From contig NZ_KI912107.1 of assembly GCF_000517085.1 (NCBI RefSeq), positions 1,488,398-1,552,397 on the forward strand: a stretch of 64,000 nucleotides of DNA. Reading direction: 5' to 3'. The notes below the pieces were generated by a model that was given only the letters and a program-made list of their open reading frames with translations, was not told where the DNA came from and did no database searches. Position 1 is the first letter of the stretch; each line of letters starts with the position of its first letter. This document shows positions 4,593 to 46,743 of this stretch, one piece after another. The translations under genes were made by a program, and so were the position numbers. Origin of the DNA: Saccharicrinis fermentans DSM 9555 = JCM 21142. GTDB taxonomy: Bacteria; Bacteroidota; Bacteroidia; Bacteroidales; Marinilabiliaceae.

Positions 4593-7500
4593 ATGAACTT
4601 TATAATAAAAAGAAAAGTATTGATAAGCATGTTGTTTATTGCACTCTCCATGTTAGGGATTGTGTCGTACAACCACTTATCGGTAGAGCTATACCCCGAT
4701 ACGGAATTTCCCGTTTTGTATGTTCAGATTGTAGGAGAAACAGAATCTGATCCTGTATATGTGGAACAGGAGGTTGTAATACCTATGGAAGGTGTTGTGG
4801 GAACACTTGAGGGCATCGAAAAAATGGAGTCTCGTATTAATCCGGGACGGGGTACCATTATTGTTTATTTAAGTAAGGATGTTGATTTTAAATATGCTTA
4901 TTTAAAATTGGCAGAAAAGGTGAGTGCTTCGCAAAGTTTATTGCCAGAGGACTTTAGAGCCACTGTTATTAAAGTGGATATGCAGCAAATAACCAATCAG
5001 TTTATGCAGTTGCAGGTGCTGGGTGAGGGTGATGTGGATAGGGTGCGCTCTATTACCGACGAGCGTATCAGTGATAAACTGGAAAGTGTTGATGGAGTTG
5101 CAGGTATAGAAGTGTACGGAGGTAGAGAAAAAACAGTAGAGATTACCTTGAATAAAGATAAACTGGAAGCACTGGGTATAACCACTTCCGAAGTACGTAA
5201 AAAAATACTTAATAACGAAGGTGAGAAAACGTTTGCCGGTAGAGTGGTGGATGATAATCAGTATCTGTTTGTAAATGTTGAAGGAGAGTACAATGATATA
5301 CAAGATTTGGAGAATGTAGTTATTGCTGCTGATGGCCCCATCTTATTAAAAGATATAGCTGAAATTGTATTTGGGGTGAAAGAGCAAACATCCTATAGTA
5401 GAGTAAATGCCAAAGAGGCGGTTACGATTCGTATGGCCAGAGAATCAACCGTGAATCAAATTGAGCTCTCGGCCAGGGTGAAGAAACAGGTGGAAGCATT
5501 AAATGAGCAGCTCAAATCTGAAGGAGTTGAGATTTCTATCACCTCCAACACAGCGGAAACCATGGAGGAGAATATCTCCCAAATTATTGACCTGGCACTG
5601 ATAGGAAGCATCCTGGCCGTTTTTATACTATGGATATTCCTGAAAAATATTCCGCTGGTATCTTTGGTAATGCTCTCTATTCCCATATCTGTATTTTCGG
5701 CTTTTAATATTTTTTATGCATTTGATATCACCATCAATACTTTAACTTTAATAGGTATTGCACTAGCAGTAGGGATGCTTATTGATAATAGTATTGTGGT
5801 GATGGAGAATATCTACCGGGTGGCATCCACCGAAAAAGACAGAGACAAGGCTGTTATTATGGGAACCCGTGAGGTTTGGAGAGCCATTTTAGCTGCTACA
5901 CTGACTACCATTACTGTTTTTCTTCCTTTTGTGTTCTCATCGAATATAATGTTTAAAATGGTAGCCAAAAATATTAGTGTTTCCATAGTGGGTACTTTAA
6001 TCATATCCTTGGCTGTGGCCTTGACCTTGGTGCCTATGATGACGCACAGTATTCTTTGGTATGGTAAATCAAACGTTCAGAAACGATTGAGACGTTTGCC
6101 TTTACATAACCGCATGATTCAATCTTATTTGGTATTGCTAAAAAATGCACTTCGCCTGCCTGCACGTACTATTAATATCGCTGTACTGGGCTTCTTTTTA
6201 ACCATATTTATTAGTCTGGTGGTGAGTTATCAGGTAAGTAAAGAAGTTGAAACACCTGAGTATGTAATTGATATAGAACGTCCCTCTGGATCTACATTGG
6301 AGGCTACCGATGAGATGGTAAAAGAATTGGAAAAGAGAATGGCGAATGTGGTTGAGCATGATAAAATCATCAGCCAGGTGTATGAAGAAAAAGCCAGTCT
6401 GGTGGTTCAGCTCAAAGAGGACTATAAGAAGGAGTCAGATCGTACATTGGGAGAGATCAAGGCCGATATTCAATCTAAGCTTTATGGTTTTGATGACTCA
6501 GAAATTAATCTTGAACAGGGAGGCACAACCACCGGAGGAGGTTCTGGCTTTGGAGATAATCCAGGTATGAGTATGATGGGTATGTTTGGCATAGGCCAGC
6601 AACAGGAAAGTATTGTGATTAAAGGAGAGGATTTTGATAAGATGCTCTTATTGGCCGAAGATATTAAGTATATACTGGAAGATAATATGGATGAGATGAA
6701 ATCTGTACGTGTCAGTGCTGGATTTCCACGTCCTGAGGTTCATTTGGAATTTGATCCAGGCTTAATGAGTATGTATAGTGTAACACCCCAAAATGTGCTT
6801 ACCGAATTATCTACCTTCCAAAGTGAATTACGCTCTGGTGGCATGCTGAAGGTAGATAACCAAGAATACGATATTGTGATGAAGGAGGAAAATCCTTATG
6901 ATGATCAGGAATTACCTCCTAAAACATATGATGATTTGCAAGAGTTGAATATCATTTCTGAAGCAGGGGCTTTAGTTGCTTTGCGTGATTTTTCTGATAT
7001 TATTTATGCCAGTGGCCGCGCTGAAATATTGCGGGTAAATCAACAAAAAGAAATAACTGTGAGATACTCTTTTGATCAGGAAATCAACGACTCAAAATCT
7101 CTTTTGGAGCAAGCACGCCAAGATGTTGACGATTTGGTGGCAGAGGTTAACCTACCTTCAGGAACTGCTCTGGAGGTTATACATGAAGAAGATCAGTTTC
7201 AAGAATTTTACTTCTTGATAGGAATGGCCTTTGTTTTGATATTAATGATTCTGGCCTCTGTCTTTGAATCGTTTGTGACACCCTTTGTGATGTTATTTTC
7301 CATTCCTTTGGCTGCTATTGGTTCTTTTTTAGGACTTATTTTTACAGGGAATTCATGGCTTAACCTTAATACACTCATTGGCTTTCTTATTTTATTGGGT
7401 ATCGTGGTCAACAATGGTATTATTTTAATCGATTATGCCAATATTTTGCGAAAAAGAGGGATGCGACATTCGCGTGCATTGTTGCAAGCTGGAATTTCCC

Positions 7501-9308
7501 GGGTACGACCCATCCTTATTACTGCAGCTACCACCATTATTGCGATGTTACCTTTGGCAATGGGAAAATCAGAATATGTGGGTAGTTTGGGTGCACCCTT
7601 TGCGATCACCGTTGTGGGAGGACTCTTGGTTAGTACTTTGTTGACCCTGGTTTTTATTCCAACTTTTAGTTTTGGTTTGGAAACGGCCTTGGATTGGATC
7701 CGTTCCTTAAATGTCACATATAAATTGGTCATCTTTACTTCCTGGATCGGAGGAGTCCTGCTAATTCATCTGGTGCTAAATCATGCTTTTATTTGGATGC
7801 TGGTTGAGTATTTTGCCTGCCTGGTGGGTGTACCTGCTGTTCTGTATTTTGCTCTTACCAGCTTGCGACAAGCCAATACCCAATTGATTAAACCCGATGA
7901 GCCTATTACCATTCGTTTACAGAGTGTCGTGAAAGTATATGACCGTAGTAATAGATTTATGCGAGAATGGAAAACGGCTAAGCTTTATGGAGCTCGAGAA
8001 CAGGCTATGCAGGGAATAAAAAGTTATAAGGAAGGTATAATATGGCAAATACCCTTATTGGGTTTTCTGGTTTGGATGACCTGGTTTTATTTGGAGACTT
8101 CTTTATGGAACTTTATTTTCGCCTTTGTTAGTTATTTTATTTTTCTATCCTATACAGCTTATCTCAGACAATGGCCCGATAAAAAAGACGTATTTAAACG
8201 TTGGTTTTCAGAGCGTAGCGTGATTTATAAAATAATATTATGGATTTATCCTGTTATATCATTGGCTTTGTTTGTTGTCAAATTCGACAGTATGGCTTCT
8301 GCTATCGTATGGGCATCTCTGTGGTATTTGGGTATTTATATTTATGTGACAGGTAAAAAAATACAGTCTGAGAATATTAATGTGGAGCGATTGAAAGGTC
8401 GTTTTGCAGGAGTCCGTAGGACGTGGTATATTTTTGTACGTTCTATTCCTGTAATAGGAAAACAAAAACAACCTTTTAAAGCATTGAAAGGTCTTACCTT
8501 AACTATGCAAAGTGGTATGATTGGTCTTTTGGGACCCAATGGAGCAGGTAAAACAACAATCATGCGTATCATTTGCGGTATACTTGATCAAAGTTATGGT
8601 AAGATATTCGTAAATGGAATGGACTCCCTTCGTTACAGGGAAGAATTACAAGGTCTGATCGGCTATCTTCCACAAGAATTCGGGTCTTATGAAAATATGA
8701 CTTCGTTTGAATTTTTGGATTATATGGCTTTACTCAAAGGACTTCGTAAAAAAGAGGAGAGATACCAAAGAGTAGAGTATGTTTTAAAGGCGGTGCATAT
8801 GTGGGACAGAAAAGATAATCCCATTGGTTCTTTTTCAGGAGGAATGAAACAACGTATTGGAATAGCTCAGATAATGCTTCATCTACCACGTATCTTGGTA
8901 GTGGATGAGCCTACTGCTGGATTAGACCCTAGGGAGAGGATACGTTTCCGGAATCTGCTGGTGGAATTGAGCCGTGACAGAATTGTTATTTTCTCTACAC
9001 ATATTATCGAAGATATTTCCAGTTCGTGTAACCAAGTGGCTGTCATGAAAAAAGGTGAACTCAAATATTGGGGTAAACCTTCGGAGTTGTCACAAATAAC
9101 TGAGGGTAGAGTATGGACCTTCGAAGTGCCTACTGATGCCTTTGAACAGGTAAATAGTAAGTATCAGGTGGTTCATCATATTGGTACTGGTAAAACTGTT
9201 CGGGTTAGGGTTTTGGCTTCAGAAAAACCTGTTGCGGATGCAGAACTTGTCAACTCAAGCCTGGAAGACTCGTACCTTTGGTTATTAAGAAATGAAGTGA
9301 GTAAATGA
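4593..9308 (+). CDS. RND permease fused to a C-terminal ABC ATPase
   Basis: A single uninterrupted frame of 1571 residues. Residues 1 to about 1030 form a complete RND permease: start IKRKVLISMLFIALSMLG, loop motif LYPDTEFPVLYVQIV, TM4 motif GMLIDNSIVVMENI near residue 400, and second-half motif GIVVNNGIILIDYAN near 945. Residues about 1035-1285 are an extra region with roughly seven hydrophobic segments not found in ordinary RND pumps. From about 1290 to the end is a full ABC nucleotide-binding domain: Walker A GPNGAGKT (about 1313), signature FSGGMKQR (about 1413), Walker B ILVVDEPTAGLDP (about 1434) and H-loop STHI (about 1467). An XRE regulator and an ABC-2 type permease follow on the same strand. 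The ATPase probably works with that permease, the RND part with the upstream adaptor. RND pumps normally need no ATPase, so the fusion is remarkable. Confidence 0.92.
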   Translation: MNFIIKRKVLISMLFIALSMLGIVSYNHLSVELYPDTEFPVLYVQIVGETESDPVYVEQEVVIPMEGVVGTLEGIEKMESRINPGRGTIIVYLSKDVDFKYAYLKLAEKVSASQSLLPEDFRATVIKVDMQQITNQFMQLQVLGEGDVDRVRSITDERISDKLESVDGVAGIEVYGGREKTVEITLNKDKLEALGITTSEVRKKILNNEGEKTFAGRVVDDNQYLFVNVEGEYNDIQDLENVVIAADGPILLKDIAEIVFGVKEQTSYSRVNAKEAVTIRMARESTVNQIELSARVKKQVEALNEQLKSEGVEISITSNTAETMEENISQIIDLALIGSILAVFILWIFLKNIPLVSLVMLSIPISVFSAFNIFYAFDITINTLTLIGIALAVGMLIDNSIVVMENIYRVASTEKDRDKAVIMGTREVWRAILAATLTTITVFLPFVFSSNIMFKMVAKNISVSIVGTLIISLAVALTLVPMMTHSILWYGKSNVQKRLRRLPLHNRMIQSYLVLLKNALRLPARTINIAVLGFFLTIFISLVVSYQVSKEVETPEYVIDIERPSGSTLEATDEMVKELEKRMANVVEHDKIISQVYEEKASLVVQLKEDYKKESDRTLGEIKADIQSKLYGFDDSEINLEQGGTTTGGGSGFGDNPGMSMMGMFGIGQQQESIVIKGEDFDKMLLLAEDIKYILEDNMDEMKSVRVSAGFPRPEVHLEFDPGLMSMYSVTPQNVLTELSTFQSELRSGGMLKVDNQEYDIVMKEENPYDDQELPPKTYDDLQELNIISEAGALVALRDFSDIIYASGRAEILRVNQQKEITVRYSFDQEINDSKSLLEQARQDVDDLVAEVNLPSGTALEVIHEEDQFQEFYFLIGMAFVLILMILASVFESFVTPFVMLFSIPLAAIGSFLGLIFTGNSWLNLNTLIGFLILLGIVVNNGIILIDYANILRKRGMRHSRALLQAGISRVRPILITAATTIIAMLPLAMGKSEYVGSLGAPFAITVVGGLLVSTLLTLVFIPTFSFGLETALDWIRSLNVTYKLVIFTSWIGGVLLIHLVLNHAFIWMLVEYFACLVGVPAVLYFALTSLRQANTQLIKPDEPITIRLQSVVKVYDRSNRFMREWKTAKLYGAREQAMQGIKSYKEGIIWQIPLLGFLVWMTWFYLETSLWNFIFAFVSYFIFLSYTAYLRQWPDKKDVFKRWFSERSVIYKIILWIYPVISLALFVVKFDSMASAIVWASLWYLGIYIYVTGKKIQSENINVERLKGRFAGVRRTWYIFVRSIPVIGKQKQPFKALKGLTLTMQSGMIGLLGPNGAGKTTIMRIICGILDQSYGKIFVNGMDSLRYREELQGLIGYLPQEFGSYENMTSFEFLDYMALLKGLRKKEERYQRVEYVLKAVHMWDRKDNPIGSFSGGMKQRIGIAQIMLHLPRILVVDEPTAGLDPRERIRFRNLLVELSRDRIVIFSTHIIEDISSSCNQVAVMKKGELKYWGKPSELSQITEGRVWTFEVPTDAFEQVNSKYQVVHHIGTGKTVRVRVLASEKPVADAELVNSSLEDSYLWLLRNEVSK

Positions 9309-9352
9309 TAAGGTGCTTTATTTGATTTGTTTTTATGCATTTTCAATGATAA

Positions 9353-9709
9353 ATGACTATGTTAAAATATAACTTTAGAAGAATATTTAGGGCTCGGGGT
9401 ATTGAAAAGCCACATGCTTACCTTCGTAAAGCAGGCTTTTCGGTGAACTTTGCCACCAAGGTGAAAAACAATAATATTAAACGCCTGGACTTAAAAGAGC
9501 TTGAGAAATTATGTTTATTACTGCGCTGTACCCCCAATGATTTTATGGAATGGATGCCGGATCCTAATACTGAGTTGTCTGAAAAACATCCCATGAATGA
9601 TTTGAAAAAACCTGCAAATGAGGTCGATTTTGTTAAAACATTGAGCGAGGTACCTCTGGGAAAATTGGAAGAGTTGAATCGCCTCTTAAAGGAGCATCTC
9701 GGAAAGTAA
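9353..9709 (+). CDS. Small XRE-family (Cro/C1-type) helix-turn-helix protein
   Basis: A 118-residue cytoplasmic protein. Residues 3-70 resemble the minimal Cro/C1-type HTH domain seen in many Bacteroidota: YNFRRIFRARGI, AYLRKAGFSVNFATKV and LDLKELEKLCLLLRCTPNDFMEW, with the usual WMPD ending. The C-terminal 45 residues are charged (SEVPLGKLEELNRLLKEHL) and may mediate dimerisation. It lies 44 bases after the RND-ABC fusion and about 100 bases before the ABC-2 permease, so it probably regulates this transporter set or itself. An alternative start is the second Met at 9359. The DNA target is unknown. Confidence 0.8.
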   Translation: MTMLKYNFRRIFRARGIEKPHAYLRKAGFSVNFATKVKNNNIKRLDLKELEKLCLLLRCTPNDFMEWMPDPNTELSEKHPMNDLKKPANEVDFVKTLSEVPLGKLEELNRLLKEHLGK

Positions 9710-9810
9710 AGCGAGAATGATTGACTGATGTCAATAAAGATTTTTAGTATTAATTCTTGAATAGTTTTGTGATTCATATAACTGAATACAAAACACTTGA
9801 TAATTATTTT

Positions 9811-10503
9811 ATGAAGAACATAATCCACATCATTAAATACAACTTAAAAATTATATTCGGCAATCGTTTTGTCTATTTTTTAGGGGCATCACTTATTTTT
9901 TACCTTCTTTTTACGGGCATAGCTTTGTTCTCGGGTGATATGATTTCCGTGGAAGATGTTTATTATCAATTGATATTTCCAGGTATATTGTTGATTTTTT
10001 TTCCCACTGCTTTTGGTATACAAAATGACGAGGATGCAAGAATTTTAGAAATACTTTTTGGTATACCTAACTATCGTTATAAGGTCTGGTTAGTGCGCCT
10101 GTCCATCATATTTGTCATGGTATTTGTTGTAGTAACCATATTGGCTTTTCTTAATAATTACCTATTAGTTGAGTTACCTGTGCTTGAGATGGGTGTGCAA
10201 CTGATGACTGTGCTTATATTATTTGGTACACTGGGCTTTTTATTTAGTACCATGGTGAAAAATGGTAATGGTACAGCCGTGGTGATGGTTATTGTTGGCC
10301 TGGCTCTTTGGTTTTTGCATGGATTCATGGGGGTTTCTAAATGGAATGTTTTTCTAAATCCGTTTCTAACACCTACTAATATTAGTGAGTCAGTGTTTCA
10401 GACTATGTTATTTCAAAACAGACTAATAATTGTAGCTGTTTCTGTGGTGTCTGTTCTTTGGGGACTGATTAACTTACAAGGGAGAGAAGGGTTCATTAAA
10501 TAA
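9811..10503 (+). CDS. ABC-2 type transporter permease
   Basis: A 230-residue membrane protein starting MKNIIHIIKYNLKIIFGNRF. An upstream in-frame codon at 9757 would add 18 residues, but those are polar and overlap a repeat-like 12-mer, so the ATG at 9811 is preferred. It shows about six membrane segments, among them FVYFLGASLIFYLLFTGIA, LIFPGILLIFFPTAFGI, IIFVMVFVVVTILAF and VVMVIVGLALWFLHGF. This is the layout of ABC-2 type permeases. No separate ATPase gene lies nearby, so the ABC domain at the C-terminus of the fusion protein (4593-9308) is the natural partner. Substrate unknown. About 480 bases without a gene follow. Confidence 0.75.
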   Translation: MKNIIHIIKYNLKIIFGNRFVYFLGASLIFYLLFTGIALFSGDMISVEDVYYQLIFPGILLIFFPTAFGIQNDEDARILEILFGIPNYRYKVWLVRLSIIFVMVFVVVTILAFLNNYLLVELPVLEMGVQLMTVLILFGTLGFLFSTMVKNGNGTAVVMVIVGLALWFLHGFMGVSKWNVFLNPFLTPTNISESVFQTMLFQNRLIIVAVSVVSVLWGLINLQGREGFIK

Positions 10504-12543: not shown

Positions 12544-13443
12544 ATGGATATCAATAGTAAAAACATACTGACGCCTTTTACATTTCCTGTATCTGGAATA
12601 GTAATCCCAAACAAAATTGTACTGGCACCTATGACCACTTTTTCAGGTAATGATGATGGTACAACCACCGACGAGGAAGTAGCCTATTATAAAAAACGAA
12701 ACGAATCAGCGGGTTTACTTATAACTGCATGTGCTTATGTCATAAAACATGGTAAAGCTTTTCATGGTCAGTTTGGAGCCGACAGCGATGAAATGATTCC
12801 AAGTCTTAGCCGCATTGCAGAGACATTGAAAGAAAATGGCGGAAAAGCGATTCTCCAACTTCAACATGGTGGCAGAATGTCGCCACCAGAAGAACTTGTT
12901 GATGGTCAAGCATTGAGTGCTAGTGCAGTAGCTGCAGAAAGAGAAGGTGCGCAAGTTCCGAAAGAAATGACTGAATATGAGATTGTTGAAACAATCAAAG
13001 CGTTTGGACAAGCAACACTTAGGGCTATTAAAGCAGGTTTTGATGGCGTGGAAATTCACGGTGCAAATACATATCTGATTCAGCAATTTTTTTCGCCTCA
13101 TTCGAACAGGAGAACTGACAAATGGGGGGAGATCTAATTAAAAGAATGACATTTCCTTTGGCAGTGGTTGATTCGGTAAAGAATGCAGCTGCAAGAGCTG
13201 CTCGGCCATTTATGGTGGGGTATCGTATTTCACCTGAGGAAATGGAAAATCCAGGAATTAGTATGGATGATACCATGCAATTGGTAAAAGCACTTGCTGC
13301 AAAAAGTAAAAGACCTTAAGCCGGAACAAATACAAACAGAGCTTGGTATTGAAAACCAGGATTTATTGAGCATTCCTATTCCATTATGGAATTTGCTTTT
13401 GAATAGAACTGGTTGGTTGCCTTTGAAAGGCAAAAATGACTAA
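12544..13443 (+). pseudogene. Old yellow enzyme (NADH:flavin oxidoreductase), disrupted
   Basis: The 5' part encodes a good OYE N-terminus: IVLAPMTTFSGNDDGT, LQLQHGGRMS and GFDGVEIHGANTYLIQQFFSPHSNRRTDKWG. At about 13124-13129 the expected run of seven G has only six, which shifts the frame and stops translation at 13137. The expected continuation GGDLIKRMTFPLAVVDSVKNAA is intact in the next frame to 13319. A C-terminal OYE piece (IPIPLWNLLLNRTGWLPL) then follows in the original frame to 13443. Roughly 70-100 residues of the C-terminal half of the barrel, including FMN-contacting parts, are missing between these pieces. The gene therefore looks dead rather than merely misread. It lies between the DJ-1 and YqhD-like genes, in the position of an electrophile-reducing enzyme. 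Confidence 0.85.
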
Positions 13444-13478
13444 GGCATATAATTTGAACGAAATAAAAATATTAGGAT

Positions 13479-14639
13479 ATGAATAATTTTGAATTTAAAA
13501 ACCCAACAAAAATTATTTTTGGAAAAGATGAAATTGCTAAACTAGCAAATGAAATTCCAGACAATGCTAAAGTATTAATGCTTTACGGAGGTGGTAGTAT
13601 CAAAAAAAATGGAATTTATAAACAAGTTAAAGATGCACTTTCTGTATTTGATATAGTTGAATTTGCTGGTATTCCTTCTAATCCTGAATATGAAATATTG
13701 ATGGAGGCTTTGGAAATTATTAAAGCACAAAATATTACTTTTTTACTAGCCGTTGGTGGAGGGTCCGTAATTGATGGAACAAAGTTTTTATCTGCTGCCG
13801 CAAAATATGAAGGTGAAACACCATGGGATTTGTTAGCGCAACGAAAACCAGTTTTTAATGGCTTGCCCTTTGGAACTGTACTGACTTTGCCAGCAACTGG
13901 TTCTGAAATGAATGGTGGTTTTGTGATTACACGTAGAGAAACAAAAGAGAAATTGGCAACTGGTGGACCGGCATTGTTTCCTCAGTTCTCTATTCTCGAT
14001 CCACAAGTGATAAGTTCTATTCCTCAAAATCAAATTGCAAACGGACTGGCTGATTCATTTACGCACGTTCTGGAGCAATATATGACTTTTCCAAACCAGT
14101 CATTGTTACAAGATAGATTTGCCGAAAGTATTTTGCAAACAATTGTGGAAGTAGCTCCTGTAATTATGAATGATGCAACAGATTACGATGCTGCTGCTAA
14201 TTTTATGTGGAGCTGTACAATGGCATTGAACGGATTGATTGGACAAGGTGTTTCTCAAGATTGGGCCATACACATGATGGGACATGAACTCACCGCTTTG
14301 TTTGGTATTGATCATGCGCAAACTTTGGCAATAGTAGCACCAAGTCATTATCGTTATAATATTGAAAGTAAAAAAGAAAAATTGGCTCAATATGCCGAAC
14401 GCGTTTGGGGTATTACAGAAGGAACTATAGAGGAAAAGAGCAATGCGGGTATTGAAAAAACTGAGGACTTTTTCCACTCTTTAGGTATTAAAACTAAACT
14501 TTCAGAATATACTGAAGATTATGAAAATGCCGCCGGAATTATTGAAAATAGATTTATAGAACGTGGCTGGAAAGGCATTGGTGAGCATGGAAAAGTTTCA
14601 CCTGGCGATGTAGCCAACATTATTAAGATGAGCTATTAA
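13479..14639 (+). CDS. Iron-containing alcohol dehydrogenase, YqhD/BdhA-like
   Basis: A 386-residue reductase of the group III alcohol dehydrogenase family. YqhD-type enzymes reduce aldehydes such as methylglyoxal, acrolein and butanal with NADPH. The start MNNFEFKNPTKIIFGKDEI is diagnostic. The cofactor-binding region is AVGGGSVIDGTKF (about 91-103). Probable metal ligands are Asp192 and His196 in ADSFTHVLEQ, His265 in DWAIHMMGHE, and His279 in GIDHAQT; their spacing matches E. coli YqhD. Length is normal. It is the last gene of the TetR-headed cluster and is followed by a hairpin terminator. Together with the DJ-1 protein it suggests detoxification of short reactive aldehydes. Confidence 0.9.
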   Translation: MNNFEFKNPTKIIFGKDEIAKLANEIPDNAKVLMLYGGGSIKKNGIYKQVKDALSVFDIVEFAGIPSNPEYEILMEALEIIKAQNITFLLAVGGGSVIDGTKFLSAAAKYEGETPWDLLAQRKPVFNGLPFGTVLTLPATGSEMNGGFVITRRETKEKLATGGPALFPQFSILDPQVISSIPQNQIANGLADSFTHVLEQYMTFPNQSLLQDRFAESILQTIVEVAPVIMNDATDYDAAANFMWSCTMALNGLIGQGVSQDWAIHMMGHELTALFGIDHAQTLAIVAPSHYRYNIESKKEKLAQYAERVWGITEGTIEEKSNAGIEKTEDFFHSLGIKTKLSEYTEDYENAAGIIENRFIERGWKGIGEHGKVSPGDVANIIKMSY

Positions 14640-40821: not shown

Positions 40822-43800
40822 TCATTCTGCTTTAGCATGACTCTTAGGATCCACATTAACGGAAGCTTTCTCTCCCTTGGCTTGATGGTTTTTATATTCT
40901 GCCATATAGTAAATCAAAGGCACTATAAGTAAGGTAAGGAATGTGGAAGCAATGGTACCTCCCATTAAAGAAATAGCCAAACCCTGAAAAATAGGGTCGA
41001 ATAAAATAACCACAGCGCCAATCACAACTGTTCCAGCTGTTAATAAAATGGGGGTTGTTCGTACTGCACCAGCTTCAATAATGGCTTCTTTGAGGGGAGC
41101 TCCTTCTGCGAGTCGGATATTAACAAAGTCAATAAGTAAGATGGAGTTTCGGACCATGATGCCTGCTAATGCAATCATTCCAATCATTGATGTTGCAGTA
41201 AAAAAGGCATTTAGCATCCAGTGTCCCACAACAATTCCAACCAGTGAAAGAGGTATGGCTACCATCATTACAAAAGGAACTTTTAGATTTTGGAACCAGC
41301 CCACAATAAGCATATAGATGATCAGAAGAACTACAGCAAATGCGGTACCCAAGTCTCGAAATACTTCATAAGTTATTTGCCACTCACCATCCCATTTTAA
41401 GCCATAATTATTTTCCACAAAAGGTTGCCCATTATAAAATTCTTCGATTTCATATCCTTTCGGAATTACGATCTCATCCATTCGATCAGAGATATCCATG
41501 ATGGCATAAACAGGACTTTCTAATTTGCCTGCAATGTCAGCAGTAACGTAAACAACAGGTTTTTGATTTTTACGGAAGATGCTCTTTTCTTTCGTGGCTT
41601 TTTCAATATTCACCAAATCACCAATTGCAACCATTTGACCATACTGAGACTTTAGATTTATACTTTTCAGATCTTCTATTCCGCTACGATCTTCCTCAGC
41701 CATACGTAAGGTAATGCCCACTTGATCATGATCATTTTCAGCAAACAAGTTGGTGACTTTGGTACCTCTTAGGTTCATATGGATGGCGTGCACAATCTGC
41801 TGTGTAGAAATACCAGCCAACATGGCTTTTTCCTTATCTACATTGAATTTATATTCATCTTGATCATCTTCTACCATCCAGTCGATATCAACTACACTCT
41901 CAGTGGTTTCAAATAGTTTTTTCACCTGCAAGGCGACATCTTTTTGGGATTCGTAATCAGGACCATATATTTCAGCTACCATAGTTGACATAACCGGAGG
42001 TCCGGGAGGAACTTCCACTACTTTTACATTGGCATTAAATTTCTTTCCAATTTCTTGTAATCGAGGACGCAATGCTTTGGCAATATCATGACTTTGTAGG
42101 TCTCTTTCTTTTTTAGAAACGAGATTTACCTGAATGTCGGCCACATTAGAACCTTTTCGCAAGTCATAATGACGTACCAAGCCATTAAAATTAATGGGGG
42201 CAGAGGTACCTACATAAGTTTGATAATTGGTTACCAACTCATGATTTCTTAAAAAAGCAGCCAGTTCTTTTGTCACATTGGCTGTCTGTTCCAATGTTGT
42301 TCCCTCTGGCATGTCCACAATAACTTGAAATTCATTTTTATTGTCAAAAGGTAAGATTTTGACAGTAACAGCCTTGAACAAAAACAAACTGGCAGAACCA
42401 AATAACATAAGGGTTACCGTGATAATAAATGCCCAACGTTTGGTTTTATGTTCAATCATAGGGCGCATGGTTTTATCATAGATTCTATATATCAGTGTTT
42501 TCTCCAGAGAATAATCTTTCTCATCTTCGTTGCTTTCATCATGCTTTAGTAAGCGATATGCCAACCAAGGCGTAATCATTAAGGCAACCAATAAGGAGAA
42601 TATCATGGCGATGGAGGCACCTATGGGCATTGGGCTCATATAAGGCCCCATCATACCCGAAACAAAAACCATGGGTAATACTGCTGCAATCACCGTAAAG
42701 GTGGCTAATATAGTTGGATTACCCACTTCGTCAATAGACTTAAGAGCTGCCTGAAAAAATGGTAGTTGTTTCATTTTAAAGTGGCGGTGCATATTTTCTG
42801 CGATAATAATAGAGTCATCAACCACAATACCAGTTACAAAAACTAAAGCAAAGAGCGTTATCCTATTGAGTGTATAGTCCATAAAGTAGTAGCTGAACAT
42901 GGTTAAAGCAAAAGTGATAGGTACCGAAATAAACACTACTAAACCACCGCGCCATCCCATGGCCAACATCACCACAAATGTTACAGCAATAATGGCTCCC
43001 AGGAGGTGCATCAATAATTCAGATACCTTTTCTGAAGCTGTTTCTCCGTAATTGCGCGTTACCTCCACATGGATATCTTTAGGAAGTAATTCCCCTTTTA
43101 ATATGTCTATTTTATGCTCAATTTGTTGGGCCAATCGCATAGCATCCGCACCGCGTCTTTTGGCAATAGAAATAGTTACAGCACTATATTCGCCAGGATT
43201 AACCTCTTTTTGCATACTGGCCTTACCGTATCCAAAAGAAACATAAGAATTAGGCAAGGCCGGTCCGTCGTTAATTGTAGCCACTTGGTGCATGTAAACA
43301 GGACTATTTTGGTATACACCAATAACTAAATTACTTACTTCTTCGGCCGACTGCAAGAACTTACCTGTAGTTACCAAGTATTCATTGTTATACTCATTAA
43401 AAGAACCAGATGATGATTGTAAATTAGAAGCTTTTAGTTGTTGAGCAATCATCAAAGGATCCATATGAACAGCAGTCATACGATCCCTGTTAAGAATAAC
43501 TTGTATCTCACGGTTTCGACCTCCTATTATTTTGGTCTCTGAGATATCGGTAATCTTTTCTATTTCCCCATTTAATTCTTGGGCTACTCTTTTTAACTGA
43601 TAATCGTCGTATGTTTCGCTCCACAATGTGAGTCCCATGGCAGGAACATCATCAATAGACCTTGTTTTAATTAAAGGAAGCGTAATTCCCGCAGGCATCT
43701 GATCCATGTTCTTCATGATCTCATTGTAAAGCTTCACCAAACTACGTTCAATGTCTTCACCTACATAGAATTGAACAATCAACATAGCTTGCTCCGGCAT

Positions 43801-44067
43801 AGATTGAGAATAAACATACTCAACACCTTTTATGTTAGAGATAACTTTTTCAATGGGAGCAACAATTCTTGATTCAACCTCCTGGGGGCTGGCTCCTGGA
43901 TATCCTAAAAAAATATCGGCAATAGGAACATCTATTTGCGGCTCCTCTTCACGAGGGGTCAGGTATGAACTGTACATTCCAATGATTACGAATGCAACCA
44001 TTAAAAGAGGTGTCAGTTTTGATTTTATAAACATTCGGGCCAATGACCCTGCAAATCCTGTTTTCAT
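40822..44067 (-). CDS. RND efflux permease
   Basis: About 1081 residues from the ATG at 44067. The longer frame begins 23 codons earlier but adds only a Cys-rich stretch that does not look like the family. The pump start is MKTGFAGSLARMFIKSKLTPLLMVAFVIIGMYSS, followed by EEPQIDVPIADIFLGYPGASPQEVE. The TM4 segment FVTGIVVDDSIIIAENM holds two Asp as in AcrB. The second-half helices include GMIALAGIMVRNSILLIDFVN. This is a distinct RND branch from the two pumps at 1246 and 4593. Its operon also encodes the adaptor, TolC, PII-like and DUF2892 proteins. Substrate unknown; metals or organic compounds are both possible. Confidence 0.92.
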   Translation of the reverse strand: MKTGFAGSLARMFIKSKLTPLLMVAFVIIGMYSSYLTPREEEPQIDVPIADIFLGYPGASPQEVESRIVAPIEKVISNIKGVEYVYSQSMPEQAMLIVQFYVGEDIERSLVKLYNEIMKNMDQMPAGITLPLIKTRSIDDVPAMGLTLWSETYDDYQLKRVAQELNGEIEKITDISETKIIGGRNREIQVILNRDRMTAVHMDPLMIAQQLKASNLQSSSGSFNEYNNEYLVTTGKFLQSAEEVSNLVIGVYQNSPVYMHQVATINDGPALPNSYVSFGYGKASMQKEVNPGEYSAVTISIAKRRGADAMRLAQQIEHKIDILKGELLPKDIHVEVTRNYGETASEKVSELLMHLLGAIIAVTFVVMLAMGWRGGLVVFISVPITFALTMFSYYFMDYTLNRITLFALVFVTGIVVDDSIIIAENMHRHFKMKQLPFFQAALKSIDEVGNPTILATFTVIAAVLPMVFVSGMMGPYMSPMPIGASIAMIFSLLVALMITPWLAYRLLKHDESNEDEKDYSLEKTLIYRIYDKTMRPMIEHKTKRWAFIITVTLMLFGSASLFLFKAVTVKILPFDNKNEFQVIVDMPEGTTLEQTANVTKELAAFLRNHELVTNYQTYVGTSAPINFNGLVRHYDLRKGSNVADIQVNLVSKKERDLQSHDIAKALRPRLQEIGKKFNANVKVVEVPPGPPVMSTMVAEIYGPDYESQKDVALQVKKLFETTESVVDIDWMVEDDQDEYKFNVDKEKAMLAGISTQQIVHAIHMNLRGTKVTNLFAENDHDQVGITLRMAEEDRSGIEDLKSINLKSQYGQMVAIGDLVNIEKATKEKSIFRKNQKPVVYVTADIAGKLESPVYAIMDISDRMDEIVIPKGYEIEEFYNGQPFVENNYGLKWDGEWQITYEVFRDLGTAFAVVLLIIYMLIVGWFQNLKVPFVMMVAIPLSLVGIVVGHWMLNAFFTATSMIGMIALAGIMVRNSILLIDFVNIRLAEGAPLKEAIIEAGAVRTTPILLTAGTVVIGAVVILFDPIFQGLAISLMGGTIASTFLTLLIVPLIYYMAEYKNHQAKGEKASVNVDPKSHAKAE

Positions 44068-44189
44068 GTGATTAAATTTAATTTTCAATGGGCACAAGTA
44101 ACAAACCGTACATGTCCTCCTCTTGTGTGAGAACAATTATTAATGGTCCGTTTCAAGTGTTTAAAATATAGTTATTTGCTTGAGCTATG

Positions 44190-45260
44190 CTATAATCTTA
44201 CAGCCATCCCATCATACAATCTCTCTTGGCATTCAACAATCAATAGATCACCTTCCGAAAGACCAGAAAGTACCTCCACCTGATTGGCATCACTTTTACC
44301 CAGTCGTACCCACCTTAAAAGAGCAGCTTGGGATTCTCCAACAGTCCAGACTCCAGTTAACTGACCTCGATTGACAATTAGATCTTTTGAGATCATGATT
44401 TTCTCATTGCTTCCCTTTCTCAATTTCACTTGCGCAAACATTCCACTTCTTAAAGCTTTTTCCTGCATTTTAGTTGGAAGTAATGAAATGCGAACTTCGA
44501 ACTGAGCACCAGACAATATACTGGAACTACTTACCCGGGAAACAAATCCTTTGATGTTTGTTTCACAGCTTTTTAGCGCTATATAAACTGTATCACCTTT
44601 GCTCACCAAGTCAATTTCAGATTCCGGTATCCGGGTCATTACTTCAAACTCACCGAGCGCTTCCACAGCTAACAAAGGCAAGCCAGGATTGGCCATATCA
44701 CCTGCATCCACAAAAAGATTGGTAATTACACCAGCATAGGGGGCACGTATATGGGCATATGTCATCATTTCTTCTACCTCAGCTTTTGCTTTTTGAGCCA
44801 CTTCTAGTCTGGCCTTTGCCATATTAAAATGCATACTTACATCGTCCAATTCTTTTTGCGTAGCACTTGCTTGTTTATACAAATTACTTATTCTATTGTA
44901 ATCCCGTTCTGCATTTTTATAAGCCGCATCAGCCTCAATAATACCAGCTTCAACCTGACTTTTTTTTGCCATTATATCATTACTTCTTATGGCCAATAAC
45001 AATTGTCCCTTTTCTACCCGATCTCCCTCGTGTGCATATATCTGATCTATTTGCCCCATAATACGAGTACTTATTGTTGATTTTTTTACAGCTGCGATAG
45101 TGCCGGAATATTGGTACGTTTTAGGCACCTCTGATGCCCTAACCTGTGATGTTTTAACCAAAGCGCCTGCTTTATTGCTTTCTTCTGTTTCGTGACTGCC
45201 ACAACCGTGTAGTATTATTGCTACAACTGTTACTAGCATGAATAATTTAGACTGATTCAT
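44190..45260 (-). CDS. RND periplasmic adaptor lipoprotein
   Basis: A 356-residue adaptor with a lipoprotein signal ending in ILHGC (Cys20). The barrel-sandwich domain is at about 60-85 and about 165-185 (YAHIRAPYAGVITNLFVDAGDMAN). Between its halves is a helical hairpin (KSQVEAGIIEADAAYKNAERDYNRISNLYKQA). A beta-barrel domain (EVRISLLPTKMQEKALRSGMFAQV) and a C-terminal part (LTGVWTVGESQAALLRWVRLG) follow. It is encoded between the TolC gene (33 bases upstream) and the RND gene, so the tripartite pump is complete here. Confidence 0.93.
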   Translation of the reverse strand: MNQSKLFMLVTVVAIILHGCGSHETEESNKAGALVKTSQVRASEVPKTYQYSGTIAAVKKSTISTRIMGQIDQIYAHEGDRVEKGQLLLAIRSNDIMAKKSQVEAGIIEADAAYKNAERDYNRISNLYKQASATQKELDDVSMHFNMAKARLEVAQKAKAEVEEMMTYAHIRAPYAGVITNLFVDAGDMANPGLPLLAVEALGEFEVMTRIPESEIDLVSKGDTVYIALKSCETNIKGFVSRVSSSSILSGAQFEVRISLLPTKMQEKALRSGMFAQVKLRKGSNEKIMISKDLIVNRGQLTGVWTVGESQAALLRWVRLGKSDANQVEVLSGLSEGDLLIVECQERLYDGMAVRL

Positions 45261-45293
45261 AGTTATATTGAGTTTTATTATTTACTATTTTTA

Positions 45294-46637
45294 TTAATTG
45301 TTAGTATATTGTGTTGATTCCGAAGATAGTAGCTCATACCGGAATACAGAAATATTATAATTATAGATGGCGTTCAAGTGTTTCAACTCATTTTCGGCTG
45401 ATGTAGCCTCAGCCATTAATAAGTCAGAAGTTCTTTCCATTCCTTCTTTATAGCGATTCGTTCTAATTCGTAATGATTCACGCGCTTGTTCTGCTGCTGT
45501 TTTATAAGTTATTAATTGACTTTCGTTTACTGCAATATCTCTTTGAGCCTGCAAAAGTTCCATATTTCCTTTGTCCAGGTATTCCTTATATTCTATTTCT
45601 GATTTATGAAACGCGGCCTTTGATTTATTGAATTTACCAATGTTTTTTCCGCCATTAAATAATTTCCACTGTAGATGAATACCGAACATATAGCTGTCGG
45701 CATCAAAACCACCCAGATCTGCATCGTACATATTATATAAAGCAAAAGCGTTAATCCTGGGGGCAAAGCTAAATGCGTCGCTTTTTTTCATCAGCCGTCT
45801 GGCTTCCATGCCATACTGCATTGCCAGTACATCTGCTCTGTTATTTACCGAGTTAAAGCCAGTAAAGGAAAAATCTACTTTGTGAATTGAGTCAGCAACC
45901 TCTAAGGGTAAATGAATATCTCTTCCTATTAGAAAGTTAAGGGATTCTTTCATGGATTGTTCTTGGTTTATTGCGGCTTTTAATTGTGCCTCCAGTTCCA
46001 AGGTCCTTACTTTTATGGCCAATACATCCGCTTCTTTCATATACCCTTGTTCCATGTTGTCTTGTGCCATTTTTAAATAAGCCTCCGAAGCTTTGCGTGC
46101 TTTTTCAATTACTGTTATTCTTCCTTTTGCCAACTGTAAGGCGTAATACGTTTGTTTCAATACATAATGAATATGCTTTTTAGTGTATTCACTTTTTAAA
46201 TGGATCGCTTTTACTTTTTTTATAGCGGCATTCTTTCCCATCCATGCATCTACATTAATGAATGGTTGCTCTACCTTAATTTGTGTATGAAAATTATTTA
46301 TATTTCCCGGATCATTTAATTCATCGGGGTTAAAATCTGCTTGCGTAACAATGGCTTGCTGCAATTTGAATCCAAAAGCATTCAAAGGATCCGTCGTAGA
46401 ATAATAGGTGCCTGAAACTTCCACTGAAGGTAAATAGGTGGCTCTTGCTTTTTGATTATCAGCCTTTGCACTTTCGATGTCGTATAAACTCTTTCGTATT
46501 TCTGTGTTGTTATTATTCGCTATTTCTAAAATTTCATGCAGCGTGAAAATGCTCGCTGAATCCTGCGCTTTTACTGATAAATTCGTGATAAAGTACAGCA
46601 ATAGGGTAACGATTATTGTTTGTTTTGTATCCATCAT
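45294..46637 (-). CDS. TolC-family outer membrane channel
   Basis: About 447 residues from the Met pair at 46637/46634, which gives a normal signal peptide (TIIVTLLLYFITNLSVKAQ); the frame extends 11 codons further upstream without support. The mature part has the two-fold helical repeat of outer membrane efflux proteins: SLYDIESAKADNQKARATYLPSVEVSGTYYST, then MAQDNMEQGYMKEADVLAIKVRTLELEAQLKAAINQE, then the second half MKKSDAFSFAPRINAFALYNMYDADLG and RTNRYKEGMERTSDLLMAEATSAENEL. First gene of its operon, with a well-formed promoter 100 bases upstream. Confidence 0.9.
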   Translation of the reverse strand: MMDTKQTIIVTLLLYFITNLSVKAQDSASIFTLHEILEIANNNNTEIRKSLYDIESAKADNQKARATYLPSVEVSGTYYSTTDPLNAFGFKLQQAIVTQADFNPDELNDPGNINNFHTQIKVEQPFINVDAWMGKNAAIKKVKAIHLKSEYTKKHIHYVLKQTYYALQLAKGRITVIEKARKASEAYLKMAQDNMEQGYMKEADVLAIKVRTLELEAQLKAAINQEQSMKESLNFLIGRDIHLPLEVADSIHKVDFSFTGFNSVNNRADVLAMQYGMEARRLMKKSDAFSFAPRINAFALYNMYDADLGGFDADSYMFGIHLQWKLFNGGKNIGKFNKSKAAFHKSEIEYKEYLDKGNMELLQAQRDIAVNESQLITYKTAAEQARESLRIRTNRYKEGMERTSDLLMAEATSAENELKHLNAIYNYNISVFRYELLSSESTQYTNN

Positions 46638-46743
46638 TATATTTGGTTTAAATTTTATGTTAATGTCCATAGATTCCTTTTGTAAAGAAATTGTTGCGAT
46701 GGCTCATCTTAAATTATATTCAAATTTGTTGTTTTTCTGGGTT

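Follow-up and report, generated by a model that had tools for sequence, protein, structure and literature searches.

Some Bacteroidota hold a conserved exporter gene set in which a resistance–nodulation–division (RND) pump and an ATP-binding cassette (ABC) ATPase form a single protein. Here we analyse this fusion in a 64,000-nucleotide stretch of the Saccharicrinis fermentans DSM 9555 genome (contig NZ_KI912107.1, positions 1,488,398 to 1,552,397; hereafter referred to as the window), in which one open reading frame of 1571 residues encodes an RND permease followed by a complete ABC ATPase. The fusion gene lies in an operon with a periplasmic adaptor and an outer-membrane channel. RND pumps belong to the secondary transporters, which are driven by ions, and ABC exporters to the primary ones, which are driven by ATP; a conserved protein of both kinds in a co-inherited gene set allows a test of whether two energy sources can be coupled in one envelope machine. 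The ATPase part itself appears to be split, with a membrane domain sitting inside it, between its A-loop and its second strand.

One protein from an RND pump and an ABC ATPase

The RND part of the fusion (hereafter referred to as RND2) has MdtB as its best solved relative (E 1.1e-72), and the best solved relatives of the ABC part are ABCA-type ATPases. Residues 1293–1571 align over 276 columns with the free ATPase encoded in the same operon (hhalign, E 4.9e-89). Among the 25 of 192 NCBIfam matches listed, multidrug RND models match the RND part best and GldA and DrrA models the ATPase, all of them under the curated cut-offs. The Walker A motif, the Q-loop (YLPQ), the SGG signature, Walker B (DEPT.GLD) and the H-loop (STH) are present in all 31 fused copies compared; the free operon ATPases have these motifs in 26/26, with the YLPQ pattern in 25/26. 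An earlier examination of the letters and open reading frames of this DNA (the sequence-only reading) had proposed a single 1571-residue frame with a full RND pump and a complete ABC ATPase (Walker A, signature, Walker B and H-loop). Both proposals are borne out by the frame at 4593..9308, the ACR_tran match over residues 2–1025 and the motif counts, and the fusion is confirmed as an RND permease and a complete ABC ATPase in one protein.

The fusion is found well beyond this genome, which is included in all genome counts given here. A query with the whole protein matched 35 of 71 genomes of the family at 1e-200, with 44–86% identity in the other genomes, and the frames are mostly about 1570–1590 residues long; the exceptions are pieces at contig ends in G015 and G017 and a truncated frame in G022, and in G029 the match covers residues 1–968 only. 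The linker between the two parts (residues 1027–1292), used as a query, matched 31 of 247 genomes of the order, 27 of them in frames of at least 1536 residues. Among the shorter frames, that of G928 ends with its contig, and the matches in G818, G881 and G809 lie too near a contig start to hold the whole protein. The same query matched 5/395 genomes of the class and 7/395 of the phylum, six of the latter credibly; the match in G138, a 31-residue frame with three stops, was discarded as chance. At 1e-60, the C-terminal 545 residues matched 64 of 296 phylum genomes, with the linker covered in only four, and the remaining matches are separate ATPases in frames of roughly 290–410 residues. The RND part at 1e-110 matched 25 of 198 phylum genomes, four of which hold fusions. 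Because the relatives beyond these four are of normal length and only 27–31% identical, the fusion looks like one old lineage. Plasmids yielded no match to the linker, and viral contigs none to the ATPase part.

The sequence-only reading had named two findings that would speak against it, a stop or frame break between residues 1030 and 1290 and homologues in which the ABC part is always a separate gene. Complete homologues have an unbroken frame, and in the genomes searched the linker was found in no unfused gene, occurring only in fusion-type frames apart from the one chance match. An assembly chimera, or an overlooked stop separating two genes, has virtually no chance of accounting for the fusion: base errors are possible in this assembly, because the frames of a neighbouring gene at 12544 are broken, and there is no sign of any in the fusion itself, whose continuous frame recurs in dozens of other genomes.

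Both RND proteins of the operon, the fused one and a stand-alone permease (RND1), keep one aspartate of transmembrane helix 4 (TM4) and have asparagine at the positions of MdtB's second TM4 aspartate and TM10 lysine. In 35/35 fusions, the proton relay of the MdtB/AcrB type, with two aspartates in TM4 and a lysine in TM10, is altered: TM4 reads DN where DD would stand, and TM10 has N instead of K. Unfused relatives from other genomes (n=16) show the same letters (TM4, 14/14 readable; TM10, 15/15 readable), and loss of the MdtB-type relay as a trait specific to the fusion was rejected on these grounds. Two other RND pumps of this genome retain DD and K. A candidate methionine-rich metal-binding loop near residue 660 was also rejected, its composition varying among homologues.

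The linker and its membrane segments

Between the RND part and the main ATPase match, the sequence-only reading had seen about 250 residues of additional membrane segments. These are present, and can be refined, by hydropathy only, to about two helices, an ATPase-like strand and about four further helices. In residues 1027–1292, two hydrophobic segments (about 1047–1085) are followed by ITIRLQSVVKVY (1105–1116) and by about four hydrophobic segments, after which comes PFKAL...GPNGAGK. In 48/48 fusions examined, a strand resembling the first strand of an ABC ATPase, with its A-loop tyrosine, precedes the membrane segment, and the ATPase remainder comes after it. Because of this placement, the membrane domain appears to lie inside the ATPase. 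The length of the insert was measured in 46 of the 48 fusions (L185 and L186 were left out) and is 163–181 residues in 43 of them; the outliers, with 109 (L173, G872), 208 (L144, G458) and 225 residues (L174, G1011), would be useful for probing what the insert does. Each sequence has one to four hydrophobic peaks in this region, mostly three or four.

Stand-alone ATPases start with the same kind of strand (for example, LSIKNLSKTY), with the second strand close behind. The profile match of the free operon ATPases starts at position 2–4 in 26/26, and the main profile match of the fused ATPases at position 14–18 in 26/31 and at 6–11 in 5/31. A first-strand pattern, composed after the sequences had been seen, is present in the linker of every fusion (48/48), whereas only 12 of 9600 linkers contain it after shuffling; it had been extended by one letter after missing L185 and L186 (from 46/48 to 48/48) and was later widened again. 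This slightly wider pattern is specific but not sensitive, because it is absent from the other operon proteins (0/33 RND1, 0/30 TolC, 0/31 adaptor, 0/30 giant permease and 0/31 small permease sequences; both permeases are described below), yet finds just 11 of the operon's 26 free ATPases and, among the other ATPases, 20 of 27; it matches once more elsewhere in one fusion. When the linker was compared with the profile of the free operon ATPase, the best match fell at ATPase positions 2–20 (score 29.3, probability 11%, E 0.0027), a score reached by none of 300 column shuffles (mean 14.6, maximum 24.6). With 48 fusions, the score against the operon ATPase was likewise reached by 0/200 and 0/150 shuffles.

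Several results caution against a split ATPase. The profile match of the strand has a low probability alone, at 11–14%, and 61% for the excised strand. Against ATPases from outside the operon, 30/200, 22/150 and 14/150 shuffles score as high as the linker, whose best alignments to these ATPases span only one, four and nine columns, in the same register. An AlphaFold model of residues 1027–1571 with four relatives is poor (mean pLDDT 46.2, pTM 0.25) and so does not confirm the split ATPase or the helices in structure. The sequence evidence, with the one profile control against ATPases from elsewhere counting against it, suggests an ABC ATPase domain that is not contiguous in sequence. We know of no ABC protein with a membrane domain between the A-loop and the second strand, and an ATPase that tolerates one would be, if the reading is true, unusual for ABC proteins.

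We also asked whether the linker conceals an ABC-2 domain or is a further piece of RND protein; both readings were rejected, as profile comparisons with the small permease, the N terminus of the giant permease, RND1 and RND2 gave probabilities of 0.2–0.6%. A Pfam scan of the linker found no credible family, with four weak matches, each in 1/13 members. Of ten sequences compared across 26 loci, the two operon ATPases evolve most slowly, with mean distances of 0.35 and 0.41; the linker has 1.16 and the soluble part of the giant permease 1.29. A tree was built from 15 of the 31 fused ATPases together with 13 free ones from the operon and 27 others; in it, the fused and the free operon sequences each group as a clade (100/100 for both).

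The conserved gene block and the proposed exporter

The fusion gene belongs to a block of seven genes in the order ABC1 (the free ABC ATPase), giant permease, TolC, adaptor, RND1, fusion and small permease. In this genome its first genes, ABC1 and the giant permease (a protein of 1109 residues), precede the window, as does TolC, the block starting some 5.8 kb before it; ABC1 is called at 335 residues, its relatives having mostly about 296–300. All seven genes are full length in 26/35 loci, and the adaptor homologue is found in 31/35. The loci L040–L042 and L098–L101 run into the end of a contig or stretch and have the expected genes as far as the sequence reaches; in L039, two additional frames separate the giant permease from TolC. 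Among three further loci, all seven genes occur in two (L142 and L144), and the third (L143) is cut. A homologue of the small permease adjoins the fusion wherever the loci extend far enough, and the two frames overlap in several of them (for example, L081, L095 and L096). The giant permease and the fusion were found in the same 4 of 198 sampled phylum genomes, the two samples being of equal size with the same listed handles, and the distances of the seven genes are correlated (r 0.80–0.98). Genome G070, searched for the giant permease and RND1, has homologues of them (36% and 51% identity) on two other contigs than the fusion (L190 and L191), and these genes thus go together although they share no locus.

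The giant permease has a Golvesin_C match in 12/12 members and a Peptidase_M1 match in 5/12 (best E 2e-4), and solved M1 enzymes match it weakly. Peptidase activity is unlikely, because the HEXXH zinc motif is absent from all 30 copies, some of which are partial or duplicate. A second Golvesin_C domain in this genome lies in a 1053-residue frame (G000:C3:2151654-2152064, L162).

The gene content, the co-inheritance, the intact ATPase motifs and the position of the strand-like motif form the basis of our proposal, in which the complex, its subunit pairing, its substrate and the order of its steps are conjectural. We consider it probable that the block encodes a composite envelope exporter, in which a tether links one heterodimeric ABC exporter with an RND pair of the MdtBC type and a single TolC. 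The sequence-only reading had proposed a composite exporter sharing the adaptor and TolC, which fits the conserved block, and had missed the apparent split of the ATPase, the second ATPase and the second permease; its description of an ABC-2 permease lacking its own ATPase is true of the small permease gene, but within the block two permeases are matched by two ATPases. The seven co-inherited genes would supply a transporter of the ABC-2 type and an RND pair like MdtBC, both using a common adaptor and TolC channel. The ABC half would consist of the 1109-residue permease, whose periplasmic part is golvesin-like and resembles a presumably dead M1 peptidase, the 230-residue permease, and the free and RND2-fused ATPases. 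Because ATPases and ABC-2-like permeases number exactly two each in the block, one heterodimeric exporter is possible, in which both ATPases and both permeases may assemble, and the ATPase fused to RND2 would tie the ATP engine to the pump. As the membrane segment would interrupt the ATPase just after the A-loop tyrosine, the ATP site may be membrane-anchored beside the RND helices. ATP would then drive a lipophilic or toxic substrate from the cytoplasm or the inner leaflet, the giant permease would take it over with its large periplasmic part, and the RND pump, adaptor and TolC would export it from the cell. A B2C heterotrimer is reported for MdtBC (PMC4338810); if RND2 is the single copy in such a trimer, counting would assign to each pump a single fused ATPase and a single ABC heterodimer.

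We infer that ATP-driven and proton-driven steps act together in this exporter. The fullest form of the proposal, a dual-energy machine in which a covalent, membrane-interrupted ATPase of a hetero-trimeric RND pump pairs with the free ATPase on two ABC-2 permeases to make one continuous path from the cytoplasm to the outside by ATP and proton flow, is put forward tentatively, as something we would sooner doubt than expect. The composite exporter must also be set against several findings that do not favour it. The ABC-2 identity of both permeases depends on weak matches: among 12 giant permeases, ABC2_membrane_2 matches weakly in three and ABC2_membrane_4 in two, and the small permease itself has no Pfam match, ABC2_membrane_3 appearing weakly in 1/13 of its family members. 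G070 is a genuine exception, with the block broken up and the fusion (L097), the giant permease and RND1 on three contigs; an unrelated 599-residue frame stands before the fusion, the 2.9 kb upstream contained no RND1, and the remaining 0.5 kb of the contig held no small permease. The tree places the fused ATPases as sisters of the free operon ones only weakly (80/66, with long branches), and in a mirror-tree analysis the partial correlation of the fused ATPase is 0.25 with ABC1 and −0.09 with the small permease. In G022, the ATPase part is disrupted by frame changes away from any contig end.

Other arrangements of the same genes are conceivable. The ABC part may move no substrate, its ATP-driven movement serving to open or reset the RND–adaptor–TolC conduit with the pseudo-peptidase part as a periplasmic lever, for which MacB and FtsEX offer models. 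The large soluble part of the giant permease, without HEXXH in any of the 30 copies, and the anchoring of the ATPase through extra hydrophobic segments would suit such mechanical coupling, but the permeases match ABC2_membrane families weakly in some members and MacB or FtsX not at all, and we regard it as unlikely. Slightly more improbable still is a fusion that acts as a mere tether, equalising the amounts and location of an RND pump and an ABC exporter that have separate substrates and energy couplings. Each half does retain its own sequence motifs, and coupling between the halves is something that we infer; however, the giant permease and the fusion co-occur in 4/4 cases among the 198 genomes, and a tether would need no membrane insert within the ATPase.

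The composite exporter shares features with several known systems. To our knowledge, MdtABC and MuxABC contain no ABC ATPase, no ABC-2 permeases and no extra helices. They resemble the block in having two different RND permeases and one adaptor per operon, and for each RND part of the block the best solved relative is MdtB, whereas both RND proteins of MdtABC are unfused and RND2 is fused here. ABC-2 exporters with an adaptor, such as the YbhG-FSR type, resemble the block in their ABCA-, GldA- and DrrA-like ATPases, their small permeases and their adaptor; by contrast, one ATPase here is in an RND pump, and one permease has the probably inactive M1-peptidase-like and golvesin-like part. MacAB–TolC combines ABC energy with an adaptor and TolC, and joins its ATPase to a membrane part in one protein (PMC8277102), and the block is similar in these respects. 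Unlike in MacB, however, the ATPase of the fusion is C-terminal, seemingly split and partnered with an RND permease, and no MacB/FtsX Pfam domain was matched in the fusion or the permeases. A Snf7–RND fusion is reported in PMC11237479. We found no report of an RND–ABC fusion in the literature, a limited test with most subscription papers and all bioRxiv preprints outside its scope. The component parts are of known kinds, and the RND–ABC combination and the split ATPase appear to be new.

Flanking genes and features of the window

The coordinates of the features are given in Table 1. The sequence-only reading had placed an XRE regulator and an ABC-2 permease next after the fusion. Both are present; however, the XRE gene occurs at 1/35 loci, the one in this genome, and is incidental, outside the conserved block. 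The small permease more likely starts at ATG 9811 than at TTG 9757, judging by the starts in several close relatives.

Table 1. Positions of the fusion, its parts and the adjoining genes within the window
Feature	Coordinates	Strand	Basis
Periplasmic adaptor (membrane fusion protein), 351 residues	113..1168	+	HlyD_D23, E 1.5e-19
RND1, stand-alone RND permease, 1024 residues	1246..4320	+	ACR_tran, E 1.4e-221; best solved relative MdtB
RND2–ABC fusion, 1571 residues, ATG start	4593..9308	+	single open reading frame
RND part of the fusion, residues 1–1026	4593..7670	+	Pfam ACR_tran 2–1025, E 8.7e-164
Two extra hydrophobic segments (helices 13–14), residues 1047–1085	7731..7847	+	hydropathy averaged over 31 homologues
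Predicted first ATPase strand with A-loop tyrosine, residues 1105–1116 (ITIRLQSVVKVY)	7905..7940	+	pattern and profile match
Putative membrane insert between A-loop and second ATPase strand, residues 1117–1292, about four hydrophobic segments	7941..8468	+	
Remainder of the ABC ATPase, residues 1293–1571	8469..9305	+	Pfam ABC_tran 1298–1442, E 7.6e-27
Walker A, GPNGAGKTT, residues 1314–1322	8532..8558	+	sequence
XRE-type regulator, 118 residues	9353..9709	+	HTH_26
Small ABC-2-like permease, 230 residues from ATG 9811 (248 from TTG 9757)	9811..10503	+	

The genes flanking the block vary among the listed loci. Upstream of it are genes for an extracytoplasmic function (ECF) sigma factor, a small protein and two proteins of the LTXXQ/Metal_resist type (L038:3843-6100), an arrangement that we take to resemble CnrYXH-type stress or metal sensing; homologues of the sigma factor turned up in 10 of the 17 upstream stretches and, as a difference from that type of regulation, none in the other seven.

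Elsewhere in the window, an NADH:flavin oxidoreductase (Oxidored_FMN) gene at 12544–13480 is either decayed or contains base errors, because its frame breaks near 13137 and has likely continuations in other frames. A second, ordinary-looking RND system, composed of a 1104-residue RND permease, an adaptor and an outer-membrane channel, is encoded on the reverse strand at 40822–46670.

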